Below, piece after piece: positions 218 to 9,531 of a stretch of 64,000 bases of DNA (within the stretch, counting starts at the first letter, position 1; each line of letters opens with the position of its first letter). The DNA is taken from the NCBI RefSeq assembly GCF_014637725.1, contig NZ_BMFC01000001.1, positions 2,632-66,631 on the forward strand, written 5' to 3'. Source of the DNA: Marivita lacus. GTDB taxonomy: Bacteria; Pseudomonadota; Alphaproteobacteria; Rhodobacterales; Rhodobacteraceae. Position numbers and translations under genes: made by a program. The notes beneath the pieces were generated by a model. The model searched no databases. It worked only from the letters and a program-made list of their open reading frames with translations, and had not been told where the DNA came from.

Positions 218-1654
218 ATGGGCATGATCAAATTATTAAAAAAGTCGGAAGAAACCGACGTTGGCGAAACAGAAGCTCAACCGAAAGACGACAGCGAGGA
301 GGTCGTTCAGATCATCTCGAAGGCTGTCAGTTCATGGTACGTCAGGAAGGACAGCAAGTACTTTGCGGTTGACCGGCTGAACGTCAAGCTATCGATGGAA
401 GACGTGCAAAGGTCCTGTGTCTTCCGGATCAAAGAGGAGTTCGGTCACTTGAAACCAACTCGCGAAATTATGAAGGAGGTTTTCCATCTGACCATCGTCA
501 AAAAGCACTCTGATACAGACACGTCGATCCCAGTTTGGAACGGCGGCATTGTCTGTAAGCCCGGGAATCCTAAGCGGTTCATCTGGGATCTTGGGACGGT
601 GGCGATCAACGCTTGGAATAAGCCCGCATATCGTAATCTCGAAGGGGTCGATCCCAGCTTCGGTCTGGCAGGGGACTTCTTCGACTGGTTCTTCACCCGA
701 GAGGAGGAAAAGCAAAAGTTCTTGGACTGGTTGTCTTGGAACCTACAGAACGAAGACCAGAAACCATCGTGGGCACCCTTCTTCTACTCAGCAACGAAAG
801 GAAGTGGCAAAAGCACCCTTTGCAAGCTCGTGGCGCGTCTCTTTGGAGACCAGAATACTGTTTGTGAGAACAGTGTCGATAAGCTCACGGGCAAGTTCAA
901 CAGCCCAATCCTGTCGAAGAAGTTGGTCATCTCGGAGGAAGTTGATCTCCGAGCCAATTCCAAGCAGGGGAACGCTCTGAAAACCTACATCACAGAGTCG
1001 GACGCGGTAGTCGAAAGGAAAGGAGTAGACGCGGAAAGAGTTGAACAGTTCTGCTGCTTCATGTTCACGAGCAACCATTTGCCGTTGTGGATCGAGGAAG
1101 AAGAAAGGCGTTACTATCTGATCGAGGTCGATCACGACGGACACGCCACCGGTCCCAAAGGAGGCGAATTTGCGGCTTTGGTTGGCGAGCTAAATGAGTT
1201 TATGGCGGATGACCGTTGTATTGCTGGCCTCTATGGAGCGCTGATGGAGCGTCGGCAGGCAGCCAAGTTCAACGCAAAATGGCTCAACGTCCAAGAGGAA
1301 GCGACACCGCTGATGAAGCAAGTGCACGCTGCTTCCGAGGGTACCCGTAAGGCAATGCTGCGCGAGATGTTGGACTCGAAAGAGTTGAAGGCAATTAGCG
1401 AGGCGAAGCTGACCGAGTTCGTGAAGAAGGAACTGCACGCTAATTTGGCGCAGACCAAACATCTCATCACCGAGCTCGGATGGTCCAAGGACAATGTGAA
1501 GTGGGATGGCTGCGACTACGCGAGGGCCGTGTGGACAGCCAAAGGCTACTGGGTCGATCGCGGTAAGCTGAAGGGGCCGGATGGCTTCGAGGAACAAGAC
1601 CTCGGGGAACACCTGAAGGTTCTGGAAGTATCCGGCGACTTACTGGGGCATTGA
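218..1654 (+). CDS. Phage/plasmid-type SF3 helicase (DUF5906 / NrS-1 polymerase-like helicase domain)
   Basis: This 478-residue protein is an AAA+ replication helicase of the kind found in phages, satellites and plasmids. The P-loop is GSGKST at residues 195-200, a Walker B-like VISEE lies near 237-241, a sensor-1 segment FMFTSNH is at 282-288, and an arginine pair (ERR) follows near 296-298. This order is typical of superfamily-3 helicases with the DUF5906 domain. The 150 residues before the P-loop do not show a recognisable primase active site, so only the helicase half can be called. The next gene starts on the last base of the stop codon, giving a two-gene operon with an HNH protein. Codon use and base composition are less GC-rich than in the chromosomal genes to the right, which supports transfer. 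The rest of the element lies to the left, outside the window. Confidence 0.75.
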   Translation: MGMIKLLKKSEETDVGETEAQPKDDSEEVVQIISKAVSSWYVRKDSKYFAVDRLNVKLSMEDVQRSCVFRIKEEFGHLKPTREIMKEVFHLTIVKKHSDTDTSIPVWNGGIVCKPGNPKRFIWDLGTVAINAWNKPAYRNLEGVDPSFGLAGDFFDWFFTREEEKQKFLDWLSWNLQNEDQKPSWAPFFYSATKGSGKSTLCKLVARLFGDQNTVCENSVDKLTGKFNSPILSKKLVISEEVDLRANSKQGNALKTYITESDAVVERKGVDAERVEQFCCFMFTSNHLPLWIEEEERRYYLIEVDHDGHATGPKGGEFAALVGELNEFMADDRCIAGLYGALMERRQAAKFNAKWLNVQEEATPLMKQVHAASEGTRKAMLREMLDSKELKAISEAKLTEFVKKELHANLAQTKHLITELGWSKDNVKWDGCDYARAVWTAKGYWVDRGKLKGPDGFEEQDLGEHLKVLEVSGDLLGH

Positions 1655-2037
1655 TGCAAAGGACCGACAAGATGATCCTCGTCTTTGAAGATGAAAGCGA
1701 GGCTTGGTTCGGAGAGGTGATTAGCGATCACCTAGAGGAGGCCCAAGCGCGGGCCTTCTCGATCATCGAGGCAGCGCGGAAGGAGGACAATGGCTGCCTA
1801 ACCACAGCGACGGTGCGACCCTCGAAGCTGCGGTTCTTGGGCAGGCAGGTTGAGGCCTATCGCTTCATCTACTGTGTCGTGAACCAAGTCACGGCTTCGA
1901 CGCAGCAGGTCGTAAGGCATCGCTGCCATAACCGGCTGTGCGTCAACCCGGACCATCTCGTACTCGGCTCGCAAGCCGACAACAAACAGGACGACTGGTT
2001 GCACTGGGCGTACGGGACCGACCCGGACTACCTCTGA
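1654..2037 (+). CDS. HNH/His-Me finger endonuclease-like protein
   Basis: A small protein of 127 residues from the ATG at 1654; a TTG one codon upstream is also possible. The C-terminal third has the zinc-loop pattern of His-Me finger homing-type endonucleases: HRCHNRLCVNPDHLVLGS, followed by an Asn two residues later. This gives the H-x-C, C-x-N-P-x-H-L and terminal Asn positions expected for metal binding and catalysis. The upstream part (CLTTATVRPSKLRFLG, then YRFIY) fits the usual lead-in of this family. The start overlaps the helicase stop by one base (TGATG), so the two are translationally coupled. Such nucleases are frequent next to phage packaging or replication genes. Whether it acts as a homing enzyme or a phage nuclease cannot be told from sequence. 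Confidence 0.7.
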   Translation: MQRTDKMILVFEDESEAWFGEVISDHLEEAQARAFSIIEAARKEDNGCLTTATVRPSKLRFLGRQVEAYRFIYCVVNQVTASTQQVVRHRCHNRLCVNPDHLVLGSQADNKQDDWLHWAYGTDPDYL

Positions 2038-3717: not shown

Positions 3718-4731
3718 TCACCCCCGTGCTGCCGACACGGGCATATCGAGTTCTGCAAGGCTGTCACCCATGTGAGGCGACCAGAACAGATGCCGCCCGC
3801 GCCCCGATCGTTTCGCCGCGTATAGCGCAACATCCGCACGTGCGATAAGGGTCTGCGGATCGCCTCGCGCCGCATGCGCAGACACGGCGATGCCGATGCT
3901 GGCCCCGACCGACACCTCCTGCCCGTCGATCATCACCGGTTCGGACACGTCCCGGATCAGATCACCGGCCAGCGCGGACAGGCGCGTCGGGTCGGTCAGA
4001 CCCGGACAGACGATGACGCATTCGTCACCCCCCGTGCGCACAACCAGATCATCCTGCCGTGTGTGGGTGCGCAGGATCATGGCCACCCGTTTGAGCACCG
4101 CATCCCCCACCGCATGGCCCAGCGTGTCGTTCACCTGTTTGAACCGGTCCAGATCCAGCTGCAGGATCGCGTATTCGGTGTCGGACTGGCCCAGCCGCGC
4201 CAGCGCACCGTCCAGCGCACGGCGGTTGTGCAGCCCGGTCAACCCGTCGGTCAACGCCTCGGTCTCGGCGGCCAGCCGTGCGCCGTTCAGCCGCGCGTTC
4301 AGGCTGAAGGAGGCCGCCATCGCACTGGACTTGGCCTCTTGCAGGAACAACAGCTCCATCACCAGGTCGCTGGAGGCGAAATCCCGGGCCGTCAGGCCAA
4401 AGCGGTGCACCGCATCCACCACGGCGATGCCAAAGGACAGATCACAGATCACGCCACCGGCCTGATCGTCGATCACCAGACCGCGCAGTCCGATACCCGG
4501 CTCCGAACGAACATGCAGGCGCACGACCTGCCCTGCCAAGCGCCGCAGATCCGCCATGGTCGCGGGTTGCATCGGGCGCAGGAATTCGAACACTTCAAGA
4601 AACCGGCACCCCGTGGGGTCATCAATCCCAAGCTTAACAAAGCTTTTACCGACCTGCCGGATATGTCCGGTTGGTCCCACGCAGACATGCAGCGGCCTGA
4701 GCGCCAGCAACAGGTCAGTCGCCGGGATCAT
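3718..4731 (-). CDS. Diguanylate cyclase: HNOBA-like sensor domain fused to GGDEF
   Basis: Residues 1-130 (from DLLLALRPLHVCVGPTGHI to LVMELLFLQE) follow the HNOBA domain, the partner of the haem-NO domain in animal soluble guanylyl cyclases. A short coiled stretch leads into a GGDEF domain from about residue 160 (LTDGLTGLHNRRAL). The active-site motif is GGDEC at 234-238, so the usual last Phe is Cys. The metal-binding Asp in LDLDRFKQVND is intact, and RQDD at 225-228 matches the RxxD product-inhibition site. It should make cyclic di-GMP from two GTP in the cytoplasm. It overlaps the H-NOX-like gene upstream by ATGA, so the two are translationally coupled and very likely work as sensor and output. 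The F-to-C change may lower but need not abolish activity. Confidence 0.85.
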   Translation of the reverse strand: MIPATDLLLALRPLHVCVGPTGHIRQVGKSFVKLGIDDPTGCRFLEVFEFLRPMQPATMADLRRLAGQVVRLHVRSEPGIGLRGLVIDDQAGGVICDLSFGIAVVDAVHRFGLTARDFASSDLVMELLFLQEAKSSAMAASFSLNARLNGARLAAETEALTDGLTGLHNRRALDGALARLGQSDTEYAILQLDLDRFKQVNDTLGHAVGDAVLKRVAMILRTHTRQDDLVVRTGGDECVIVCPGLTDPTRLSALAGDLIRDVSEPVMIDGQEVSVGASIGIAVSAHAARGDPQTLIARADVALYAAKRSGRGRHLFWSPHMGDSLAELDMPVSAARG

Positions 4732-5327
4732 GCCCCCTCCGCCATCGCAGCACCACCGAGCGAAAAGCCCCGATCCGCGCCGAACGCGGTTTCGACAACG
4801 ATCACCTCGATCACCTCTGACCCGTTGCGGATGCCGCGATGATCGAGCACGGCAAGCGTTCCGTAATCATCGGCCATGGCGCGCAACAGACCGACGAGCG
4901 CATGGCCGAACCCCGCCGGTTCCCCCCGGCAGTCGATGATGAAACTCTGGGAAATCGGTTCACGCACATGCACTTGCGGCAGATCAAGACCCGACACCGC
5001 CAACCGCGTGCGCCCCGGCAGATCGTCAAGCGAGTGCAGCAATTCGGAAAACGTCTCGCCTCCAAAGCGCATCAGCCGACGCACCGAGGCATGATTCTGG
5101 TGCGTGATGAGATACGCGCCAAGGTCTTCCAGGATCACCGATTCCGGTCGGTCCAGCACTTCGGCACAGGCGGCCAGCAGCTTGGGGAAGTAGCCCGCAT
5201 CATATTGCAGCATCGCCTCGAACGAGGTGACGGGCAGATCCGACAGGCCGACCGCCCGTGCCCAGCAGTCAGCACCGAACACATCGGAAACGAACGCTTC
5301 GAGCGTGCGAAAGATCAAACCATGCAT
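4728..5327 (-). CDS. H-NOX-like (haem NO-binding fold) protein with degenerate haem site
   Basis: The protein opens with MHGLIFRTLEAFVSDVFGADCW, the characteristic beginning of H-NOX/HNOB domains, and keeps the pattern up to residue 180 (VILEDLGAYLI; RLMRFGGETFSELLHSLDDL). In soluble guanylyl cyclase the proximal haem ligand is the His of NLDALH; here the equivalent is SLDDLP, so the position is Pro104. The haem-propionate motif YxSxR aligns with CRGEP at 133-137. Both canonical haem determinants are therefore missing. I chose the ATG at 5327 because it matches the family start and has AAGAGG nine bases upstream; ATGs at 5357 and 5354 are alternatives. The stop overlaps the GGDEF gene. It probably regulates that cyclase, but by a haem-independent or differently ligated mechanism (inference). 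Confidence 0.8.
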   Translation of the reverse strand: MHGLIFRTLEAFVSDVFGADCWARAVGLSDLPVTSFEAMLQYDAGYFPKLLAACAEVLDRPESVILEDLGAYLITHQNHASVRRLMRFGGETFSELLHSLDDLPGRTRLAVSGLDLPQVHVREPISQSFIIDCRGEPAGFGHALVGLLRAMADDYGTLAVLDHRGIRNGSEVIEVIVVETAFGADRGFSLGGAAMAEGA

Positions 5328-5394
5328 GACATGCGCCTCTTGTTCGGCACGCATCATCGCATCAGGGTCTTAACAATCGGCAAACCGCCTGCGA

Positions 5395-6954
5395 TCAGAA
5401 ATCCGTTGGCGCCCCGCCCTCGGCTTTGCGACGTTCGACGAAGGCCAGCAACTCCTCGTGGATCGCCGCGTCCATCGGCGGCGCTTCGAATTCCTCGAGG
5501 ATCGCCTTGTACATCACGTGAGCCCGTTCGGCGGTCCAGACGCTGCCCGCCACTTCCCAGGCCTCGTAGTTTTTCCAATCCGACAAAAACGGCTGGTAGA
5601 ACGCAGTCGTGTAGCGTTCCTGCGTGTGCTTGGTGCCAAAGAAGTGCCCGTTGCTGCCCACTTCGCGGATCGCCTCAAGGCCAAGCCCGTCATCGCTCAC
5701 GTCACAAATCGCCGGGTCCATGTAGCGGATCATCTGCTGGATGACCTCGCAATCCATGACAAATTTTTCCGGGCTGGCGATCAGACCGCCCTCAAGCCAT
5801 CCCGCCGCATGATAGACCATGTTGGTGCCCGACTGGATCGCGGCCCAGAGGCTGTGTTCGGTTTCCCACATCGCCTGAGCGTCCGGCACGTTGGCCGCAC
5901 AAACACCCGAGGACCGCAGGGGCAGTCCGTAAAACCGCGCCAACTGTCCGGTCATCTGGGTCGCGCGCATGTATTCCGGTGTCCCAAAGGCAGGCGCGCC
6001 AGATTTCATGTCGACGTTCGAGGTGAACGTGCCAATCGCGCAGGGCGCTCCGGGCCGGATGATCTGGGCCAACACAATCGCGCTCAGCCCTTCGGCCAGC
6101 GATTGCGCGACTGCTCCCGCCATGGTCACTGGTGCCATCGCCCCGGCAAGGGTGAAGGGTGTGACGATACAGCCCTGCCCGCGCGCGGCGCAGCGCATCC
6201 AGCCATCCATCATCGGATAGTCGTGTTTCAGCGGCGAGGTGGAGTTGATGTTGGTGTACATGCGCGGGCTGGCGTCGAATTCGGCGTGGCTCAGCCCCCC
6301 GGCGATACGCACCATCTCCATCACGTCCTCGACGCGCTCCTTGCCCAGAGAATAGGCATGCGCCACCTTGTCGGTCAGCGTCAGCTTGTCATAGAGCACG
6401 TCCAGATGCCGCACGCTGGCATGGATATCCACGGGTTCCACCGGATAGCCGCCGACGAAGTGGATGCAATTGAAGTATTGCGACAGCTTGAGGAAATTGC
6501 GGCACATCTCGCGGGTGCCGGGCACCTTGCGACCCACCTCCATGTCCCAGTAGCTGGGCGGCGAGGACACGTTTCCGAAAAGGATATGACCATCGCCGAC
6601 GGTGATCTGGCGCTCGGGATTGCGCGGCGTGATCGTGAACGACGGCGGGGTCTTGCGCACCCATTCCATCACGAACTCGCGGTCCATCCGCACGTTTTCG
6701 CCGTTCACAATACATCCGGCATCCCGCAGGATCTGCACCGCCTTGGGGTTCAGGAACTCGATCCCGATTTCCTCGAGGATCACCATCGCCGTGTCGTGGA
6801 TGCGCTGCACACCTTCCGGGCTCAGCGGCTCGGTCGGGCGGTCGATATTGACCGGCAGGCTCCAGGGAAGCTGCTCGATCACCGAACTCCCGCGGCGCAC
6901 GGCATGTCCGGACCGTCCGCCGCTGCGGCGTTTGCGTGTGATGGTATCGGTCAT
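5395..6954 (-). CDS. Trimethylamine methyltransferase (MttB) family protein, non-pyrrolysine type
   Basis: A 519-residue member of the MttB superfamily (TIM-barrel corrinoid methyltransferases), with typical segments LSPEGVQRIHDTAMVILEEIGIEF, SPPSYWDMEVGR and SNGHFFGTKHTQERY. No in-frame TAG is present, so it is not the pyrrolysine-dependent trimethylamine enzyme. The non-Pyl members that have been characterised act on glycine betaine or other quaternary amines and pass the methyl group to a corrinoid protein. The start at 6954 (MTDTITRKRR) has AAGGGGG just upstream. No corrinoid protein or reductive-activation gene lies beside it, so the substrate is open. A 6-base inverted repeat (GGCATC / GATGCC, 6984-6998) sits in its leader. 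Confidence 0.88.
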   Translation of the reverse strand: MTDTITRKRRSGGRSGHAVRRGSSVIEQLPWSLPVNIDRPTEPLSPEGVQRIHDTAMVILEEIGIEFLNPKAVQILRDAGCIVNGENVRMDREFVMEWVRKTPPSFTITPRNPERQITVGDGHILFGNVSSPPSYWDMEVGRKVPGTREMCRNFLKLSQYFNCIHFVGGYPVEPVDIHASVRHLDVLYDKLTLTDKVAHAYSLGKERVEDVMEMVRIAGGLSHAEFDASPRMYTNINSTSPLKHDYPMMDGWMRCAARGQGCIVTPFTLAGAMAPVTMAGAVAQSLAEGLSAIVLAQIIRPGAPCAIGTFTSNVDMKSGAPAFGTPEYMRATQMTGQLARFYGLPLRSSGVCAANVPDAQAMWETEHSLWAAIQSGTNMVYHAAGWLEGGLIASPEKFVMDCEVIQQMIRYMDPAICDVSDDGLGLEAIREVGSNGHFFGTKHTQERYTTAFYQPFLSDWKNYEAWEVAGSVWTAERAHVMYKAILEEFEAPPMDAAIHEELLAFVERRKAEGGAPTDF

Positions 6955-7054
6955 GGCGCCCCCTTGCGTTGCCCCTTTAGCTAGGCATCGCGGATGCCGC
7001 TTATCCTGCCGGAACACGACTCATGTGGTCGCTTTTGTCTTTTTCGAGAAGAGA

Positions 7055-8127: not shown

Positions 8128-9531
8128 ATGCCCGGGTCTGTCCTCATCATCGACGCCATGAGCAACCGCCGCATTCACCTGCGGTCCCGGCTGGACACTG
8201 CCGCCTATCCGGTGGACATGGCCGAATCGCAGGCCGAAGGGCTGGCCCGCATCCGTCAGGATCCCCCCGATGTCGTGATCATCGCCGATGACCTGCCCGG
8301 TCTGCGTCTCAGGCAGGTCTGCAAGCTTCTGCGCTCCAACCCAATGACCCAGCTCACGACCATCGTGGTGGCGGTGCAGCGCGAGAACCATTCGGCGCGG
8401 GTCAGCGCGCTGCGTGATGGTGCCTATGACGTGATCGACCAGACAGCCGATGCCGCCGACCTCAAGGCGCGGATGCGCAGTTTCCTGCGGACCCGGCACC
8501 TGTCCGAAGACACGCAGACCCCGTCCGTGCCACAGGCGGCGCAGGGCATGGCCGAAGCGGTACCAGACTTCGCGCCCAAGATTGTCGCCACCTTTGTCAC
8601 CTTCCCCGCGCAAGGCAGCGCGCCGCCCCTGCAAAGCGCCATCGCCCCCGAGTCCGGGATCGACGCACGGGCGCTTGCGGCACAGGCGGCACGGCGGGCG
8701 CCGGATGCGGAAACCGATGTCTACGTCCTGATAGAGCCTGCGCAGGGTGACGAGGCGCGCGACACTCTGGGTGCTCTGCTGACGCATCCCGCCAGTCGTC
8801 ACAGCCGCATCCTTTTTGTCACGGATTGCAGCGCGCAGCGCGCGTCACCTCTGGACCTCGGCGCGCATGACCAGGTGCCATCGACCGTCAGCCCGACGGA
8901 ACTGGCGCTGCGCATCCAGCGCCTTGCCCGGCGCAAGCGCGATGCCGACCGCGCGCGCAAGACCACGACCGAACTGGGACAAAAGGCCTATGTCGATGTG
9001 CTGACCGGGCTGAACAACCGCACGGCCATGGAGGAATATCTTGTCCGGACCGACCGGGCGCTGGCTGAATATCCACGTGCGGTCGCGATGATGATCGTCG
9101 ATCTCGATCACTTCAAGGCGATCAATGACACTCACGGTCATGCGGCGGGCGACACGATCCTTGCGCATGTGGCGCGGACGATGAAATCCCGACTGCGCGA
9201 TGGTGATTTCATCGCGCGCTATGGGGGCGAGGAATTCCTGATCGTGCTGCCCGATGTCGGCCCCGGAGAGGCGCGCAGCGTGGCGCAGCGGATGCGCAAC
9301 GCGGTGGCCGACAGCCCGAAGGCGATCGAAAACGGCACCCATGTCCGCGCCACGGTCAGCATCGGGGTCGCCATGGCCAGCCGCAGCGACCGCCTGTCGA
9401 CCGCAGATCTGCGCCGTGCCGCTGACGCCGCGCTCTATGATGCCAAGAGAAACGGGCGCAACCGGATCGAGGTCGCGCACCACGCGGCCCTTCTGGGCAC
9501 TCCGCAACAACGCATGAGCGCGGGGCTGTGA
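8128..9531 (+). CDS. PleD-like diguanylate cyclase with degenerate receiver domains
   Basis: 467 residues with the layout of PleD: receiver (about 3-125), second receiver-like domain (about 180-275), GGDEF (about 295-455). The cyclase part is intact: DVLTGLNNRTAMEEYL, IVDLDHFKAINDTHGHAAGD, catalytic GGEEF at 366-370, and RDGD at 357-360 as an inhibitory RxxD site. The first receiver has Ala53 where PleD has the phosphorylated Asp (IIADDLPG against LLDVMMPG). It has Ala in place of the second acidic pocket residue (VLIIDAMS), and Gln in place of the conserved Lys before Pro. It should still make cyclic di-GMP but cannot be switched on by canonical phosphorylation. The start is ATG or GTG-like context with weak ribosome site after GGAGGGTTC. 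It is monocistronic, four bases before a convergent gene. Confidence 0.87.
   Translation: MPGSVLIIDAMSNRRIHLRSRLDTAAYPVDMAESQAEGLARIRQDPPDVVIIADDLPGLRLRQVCKLLRSNPMTQLTTIVVAVQRENHSARVSALRDGAYDVIDQTADAADLKARMRSFLRTRHLSEDTQTPSVPQAAQGMAEAVPDFAPKIVATFVTFPAQGSAPPLQSAIAPESGIDARALAAQAARRAPDAETDVYVLIEPAQGDEARDTLGALLTHPASRHSRILFVTDCSAQRASPLDLGAHDQVPSTVSPTELALRIQRLARRKRDADRARKTTTELGQKAYVDVLTGLNNRTAMEEYLVRTDRALAEYPRAVAMMIVDLDHFKAINDTHGHAAGDTILAHVARTMKSRLRDGDFIARYGGEEFLIVLPDVGPGEARSVAQRMRNAVADSPKAIENGTHVRATVSIGVAMASRSDRLSTADLRRAADAALYDAKRNGRNRIEVAHHAALLGTPQQRMSAGL

Follow-up and report, generated by a model that had tools for sequence, protein, structure and literature searches.

Genetic organisation of the hnox locus

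Analysis of the window, the whole 64,000 nucleotide stretch of Marivita lacus DNA under study, revealed an H-NOX-like gene, here called hnox, whose 3′-end overlaps the start of a diguanylate cyclase gene by 4 bp. The features of the locus were as follows.

3718–4731, minus strand: partner diguanylate cyclase, 337 amino acids, 4 bp overlap (ATGA) with hnox, motif GGDEC
3796–4257, minus strand: GGDEF domain, cyclase residues 159–312 (Pfam)
4504–4716, minus strand: HNOBA-like stretch, cyclase residues 6–76 (21.1 bits, below the cut-off of 23.4)
4728–5327, minus strand: H-NOX-like (HNOB) protein, 199 amino acids, proximal His replaced (Pfam, phmmer, AlphaFold2 model)
4917–4931, minus strand: CRGEP (residues 133–137) in place of YxSxR (alignment and bases)
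5016–5018, minus strand: codon CCG, Pro104, in place of the proximal haem His (alignment and bases)
5395–7017, minus strand: MTTB-family methyltransferase gene, upstream of hnox on the same strand (Pfam)

The hnox product starts with MHGLIFR and is encoded on the minus strand, which had not been given in the sequence-only reading, an earlier note on this DNA. There is an extra in-frame ATG at 5357; relatives nonetheless aligned from MHG. A HAD gene also lies upstream of hnox on the same strand. A second diguanylate cyclase, with a receiver domain and a GGDEF domain, is encoded nearby (8128–9531, plus strand). A DUF5906 protein and, after it, an HNH/homing-endonuclease-like protein (218–2037, plus strand) perhaps mark the border of a phage or mobile element.

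Fold and haem determinants of the H-NOX protein

The hnox product matched the Pfam family HNOB (E 1.4e-19, 71 bits against a cut-off of 25.5), and a whole-genome search showed it to be the only protein of the window genome that did so. The AlphaFold2 model had a mean pLDDT of 88.6, with residues 182–199 below 50, and its best fold matches were to Nostoc H-NOX (TM 0.79/0.85, 2o09). The H-NOX fold, which the sequence-only reading took to be retained, is predicted to be kept on the grounds of both the Pfam match and the model. Helix F (residues 93–110) continued through Pro104 in the model. The model gave the same TM of 0.74 to the unliganded and the NO-bound forms of Shewanella H-NOX and so speaks for neither state of helix F. 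The H103G mutant of Shewanella H-NOX reportedly mimics the NO, or signalling, state. Its structure (2kil, by title) was present among the structure matches.

An alignment by phmmer with Nostoc H-NOX (4iah, E 1.6e-11) placed SLDDLP over NLDNLH without a gap, which shows that Pro104 occupies the position of the haem-ligating His. In the same alignment CRGEP faced YQSTR. Both replacements had been proposed from the letters of the DNA and were confirmed here. The fold appears to be kept and the proximal His and YxSxR are lost; a haem-free derivative, which was one of the two possibilities raised earlier, is the most economical reading.

Residue 104 across the subfamily

Relatives were surveyed at 258 loci, of which 23 had no profile match (20 from the HNOB search and 3 never meant to hold an H-NOX gene). 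The 235 profile matches represented 219 distinct proteins, and the 205 of these that scored above 150 bits were counted as the subfamily. The other 14 distinct proteins comprised 13 His forms of the canonical kind plus L245, which belongs to the subfamily but has an internal stop; it carries His at position 104 and was left out of the counts. The sample was not random: 74 rows came from the best 80 loci of a scan ranked by closeness to the window protein, genus mates supplied 16, and the remaining 115 were mostly one per genus, among the better-scoring HNOB matches listed.

Residue 104 was Pro in 164 of the 205 distinct sampled members and His in 15. The remaining 26, with neither Pro nor His, carried ten further kinds of residue, giving 12 kinds overall (Ala 5, Arg 5, Gln 4, Asn 3, Ser 3, Thr 2 and one each of Asp, Glu, Gly and Lys). 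Among the 115 mostly one-per-genus rows, drawn from the matches listed, there were 80 Pro and 14 His forms. A sequencing error as the source of Pro104 was considered and rejected, because Pro was also found in all 16 other distinct sequences of the genus and in most of the subfamily. In the 14 inspected of the 21 genomes with two HNOB matches, 13 loci were readable (L049, L054, L057, L067, L068, L069, L071, L080, L083, L190, L217, L223 and L247), and their subfamily copy carried Pro in 12, Thr in one and His in none, which is too few genomes for a test.

A search of 385 genomes of the class with the subfamily profile gave 10 matches, five in the same family and five outside it. These five outside matches, together with G294 inside the family, had far lower scores and kept both His and YxSxR, so that within the sampled genomes the subfamily looks confined to Rhodobacteraceae.

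YxSxR was found in 0/15 His forms of the subfamily. Position 135, the Ser of YxSxR, was Trp or His in 12/15 His forms compared with 11/164 Pro forms (Fisher 3e-10), although this column was picked after the data were seen. A tree-based test of the association, with just four independent pairs on supported branches, gave no support, so it is no more than a lead.

Haem could still be bound via another residue, with NO still sensed. His98 and the HQNH motif had been put forward earlier as substitutes, and neither is supported: His98 was missing in 31/164 Pro forms and present in 10/15 His forms, His79 was found in approximately 10% of Pro forms, and His76 in 85% of Pro and 66% of His forms. Other candidates are His2 (5322–5324, minus strand), which is special to the group (197/205 members, 0/13 canonical rows), and Cys133, which was present in 68% of Pro forms, where no other Cys column exceeded 30%. 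NO control was also assumed by Kumar & Spiro for the related Paracoccus denitrificans protein (PMC5588039). However, roughly one in three Pro forms has no Cys133, His98 is variable, and His2 was as common in the His forms (13/15) and therefore does not compensate for the lost proximal His. We regard an alternative haem ligand as quite improbable.

Conserved positions and selection

Alignment of the subfamily revealed 26 positions at which conservation reached 95% or more in Pro forms and stayed below 35% in the 13 canonical rows, with conserved positions 186 and 188 falling in gaps of the canonical rows. Apart from position 104, these positions were also 87–100% conserved in His forms. The group-conserved positions, many of them charged, included E67, D68, R83, R84, R87, R106, R149, D153, D154 and Y155. 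This pattern suggests a group-specific surface for a partner, not for haem. G70, G146 and P117 were invariant across Pro forms.

The hydrophobic residues in or near helix F (L97, L100, L103, L114 and L148) were conserved in Pro forms, the core ones at 97–99%. This would be expected if the old haem pocket bound another small molecule, such as a lipid or a redox-active compound, and passed the signal to the cyclase; the review that describes Group 5 H-NOX proteins leaves their trigger open in its available text (PMC8738867). Against this, YxSxR, the would-be holder of an acidic ligand, is gone and no ligand is known, and we consider small-molecule binding unlikely, if less so than an alternative haem ligand.

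Within the genus, dN/dS had a median of 0.12 and a maximum of 0.22 (101 of 136 pairs usable, 35 saturated), and purifying selection acts on hnox. The Pro104 codon was CCG in 66, CCC in 59, CCT in 21 and CCA in 18 Pro forms; as all four Pro codons are in use, Pro has been kept through silent change. The loss of both haem determinants and the GGDEC motif of the window cyclase might be taken as signs that hnox is a decaying relic in the course of being lost. This is already contradicted by the selection data, namely the low dN/dS and the silent turnover at codon 104, and the gene was present in 17/17 genomes of the genus, with an HNOB match in 221/295 genomes of the family (one genome per genus). 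A relic is accordingly the reading to which we give the least credence, and it is very improbable.

Evolutionary history

A tree was built from the 205 members and five outgroup proteins with positions 104 and 135 excluded. The subfamily formed one clade (support 98) that contained the window protein, which was placed exclusively among Pro forms. The largest inner clade held 151 rows, four of them His forms, whereas the 54 remaining rows included 11. When seven long-branch rows were removed, the first two side branches were His (supports 100 and 87), the third was Pro, and the root state by parsimony was His. His thus looks ancestral at position 104. The best tree had 12 changes between His and not-His; inner support was often low, so the number of His losses is uncertain. 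Lone His rows within Pro clades may be reversals.

The partner cyclase

In the cyclase model, an N-terminal domain of mixed alpha/beta structure was accompanied by a long helix (residues 120–160) and a GGDEF domain. Foldseek with the cyclase gave PAS-GGDEF enzymes as the leading matches. Subunits of soluble guanylyl cyclase were listed too, at a TM of only approximately 0.34, and a comparison of the N-terminus with PDB sequences gave no useful match. HNOBA was matched by 37/40 aligned partner cyclases at E values up to 0.01. The gene pair can be read as the soluble guanylyl cyclase layout (H-NOX, HNOBA, coiled coil, cyclase) spread over two genes.

A diguanylate cyclase had been proposed as the target of the protein, and the neighbourhoods of its relatives agreed with this. 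A cyclase gene was directly downstream of hnox in 197/204 loci with room for one, 135 of them with the 4 bp overlap. This did not depend on residue 104, as the cyclase was the neighbour in 158/163 Pro, 14/15 His and 25/26 other loci with room. An upstream MTTB gene was found in 66/162 Pro, 1/14 His and 10/24 other loci with room. Among the 197 surveyed partner cyclases the motif was GGDEF in 181, GGDEC only in that of the window, and another string in 15; these 15 were read by taking the first match, a crude rule by which the active site may have been missed.

Comparison with Group 5 and other known systems

The window protein fits the Group 5 H-NOX proteins, so the Pro form was already in print. 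Group 5, in the accessible text of its description, has the proximal His in <10% of members and Pro in most, keeps the hinge glycines, lacks a conserved Cys, and has a signal that is left unexplained (Lee-Lopez & Yukl 2022, PMC8738867). The subfamily described here shares the mostly Pro composition with few His (164 and 15 of 205), the absence of a conserved Cys set, the hinge glycines and the GGDEF neighbour, and no difference between the two was found. GGDEF, MTTB and HAD are neighbour families in the Group 5 figure legend, although the available text does not tie MTTB or HAD to Group 5 (PMC8738867). Group 5 was defined as a similarity-network cluster that holds the P. denitrificans protein, whereas a profile and a tree were used here, and none of our loci was identified as the P. 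denitrificans gene.

P. denitrificans HnoX was described as lacking the axial His (Kumar & Spiro 2017, PMC5588039), as was Rhodobacter sphaeroides H-NOX, for which the same paper cites Iyer 2003. The hnoX mutant of P. denitrificans formed less biofilm and had no BapA, and the authors suggested that DgcA is inhibited by H-NOX, modelling the protein as NO-responsive (PMC5588039). The phenotype was extended in a 2025 paper, in the accessible part of which c-di-GMP was reported as undetectable (PMC12582929). The earlier statement that no function had been described for such a form is consequently outdated, given the description of Group 5 (PMC8738867) and the biofilm phenotype of this His-lacking member (PMC5588039). 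The P. denitrificans pair resembles that of the window in the missing axial His and in the overlap with a gene for a GGDEF protein that carries an additional domain at its N-terminus; it differs in its known biofilm phenotype and in that the residue replacing His is unnamed in the available text (PMC5588039).

In Dinoroseobacter shibae, H-NOX reportedly inhibits Dgc1 once it has bound NO (PMC7232146, PMC6473078, PMC8846402; original Bedrunka 2018). The single HNOB protein of D. shibae (G035, L081) belongs to the same subfamily, is encoded in the same gene pair and likewise has no YxSxR, but it reads DDLHDRAR and so differs from the window protein in keeping the proximal His, as well as in its reported NO-bound inhibition of Dgc1. 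As D. shibae is one of only 15 His forms in 205, its NO mechanism ought not to be extended to Pro forms.

The pseudo-H-NOX of the soluble guanylyl cyclase alpha subunit is likewise a haem-free H-NOX fold in a PAS-coiled coil-cyclase machine; it differs in being eukaryotic, part of a single fused chain and placed beside a haem-bearing beta subunit (PMC8196705). Its pocket is described as blocked by an N-terminal extension (PMC8196705), whereas the window protein has no extension and starts with MHG like its relatives. Haem-free H-NOX of Vibrio cholerae demonstrates that signalling without haem is possible in vitro; that protein, however, belongs to a group with a fully conserved proximal His and senses oxidation via zinc-site Cys residues (PMC7108781), which are not conserved in the window subfamily. 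No spectrum of a Pro form was found in the literature searched, subscription papers lying mostly outside it.

Nitric oxide context

The window genome encodes two Cu nitrite reductases above the family cut-off and two FIST-domain proteins.

C13:92920–93894, C26:5938–6912, C2:429641–430228 and C3:104750–105310 (G000, the window genome): Cu nitrite reductases and FIST proteins

With two Cu nitrite reductases the organism probably makes NO. The NO sensor NosP belongs to the FIST proteins (PMC8738867), and NO may be sensed elsewhere in the cell. Nitrite reductase genes were found in 9/14 His-form genomes compared with 36/104 others (p = 0.04, uncorrected for kinship and the number of tests). PF02239 alone was found in 7/14 compared with 24/104 (p = 0.05, uncorrected), and Cu-type nitrite reductase alone gave p = 0.38 (uncorrected). 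The link of the His form to NO production is weak, and the window genome, a Pro form with two Cu nitrite reductases, argues against it.

Proposed role of the H-NOX protein

We consider it fairly probable that hnox encodes a Group-5-type H-NOX in which haem is no longer held via a proximal His and which acts on the adjacent PAS-helix-GGDEF cyclase as its dedicated partner subunit. By analogy with its relatives, the protein would regulate, and probably inhibit, the cyclase. Several points speak against this reading: the conserved helix F hydrophobics would also suit a ligand-holding pocket, in the model of Kumar & Spiro the His-lacking P. denitrificans protein responds to NO, and the window cyclase has GGDEC, its activity being only predicted.

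In Shewanella H-NOX, NO causes the Fe-His bond to break and helix F to become distorted (PMC8196705), and in ordinary H-NOX proteins helix F distorts at the His upon NO binding (PMC8196705, PMC7108781). In a Pro form there would be no Fe-His bond to break, and Pro104 sits where helix F distorts, so that the helix might rest in or near the 'His-off' state which NO produces in an ordinary H-NOX. With no such bond, haem-bound NO would not govern inhibition of the cyclase, which could be constitutive or could respond to a different cue through the conserved charged residues of the group. The Pro kink itself is not essential, since 26/205 members have neither Pro nor His. We put forward this 'His-off' resting state tentatively, with more doubt than confidence; it fits the DgcA inhibition proposed in P. 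denitrificans, for which NO would not be needed.

For the family as a whole, a possible scenario, held with similar reserve, is that Rhodobacteraceae made a haem-free pseudo-H-NOX in which loss of the Fe-His bond locked signalling on, yielding a constitutive or differently gated inhibitor that parallels soluble guanylyl cyclase alpha, while a few lineages, Dinoroseobacter among them, keep the ancestral haem sensor. The Pro form was in print yet unexplained, and its observation in the sequence-only reading was correct. To this the present analysis adds the counts at residue 104, the apparently ancestral His, the retention of the partner regardless of that residue, the use of all four Pro codons together with the low dN/dS, and the identification of D. 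shibae as a His-keeper. The available literature treats the D. shibae and P. denitrificans proteins as NO sensors, and D. shibae keeps the His that most relatives have lost. Should the Pro form prove haem-free, it would be unsafe to infer that NO controls c-di-GMP in most such bacteria. Because relatives with and without the His occur naturally beside the same partner gene, they would offer a direct route to the role of an H-NOX protein without haem.
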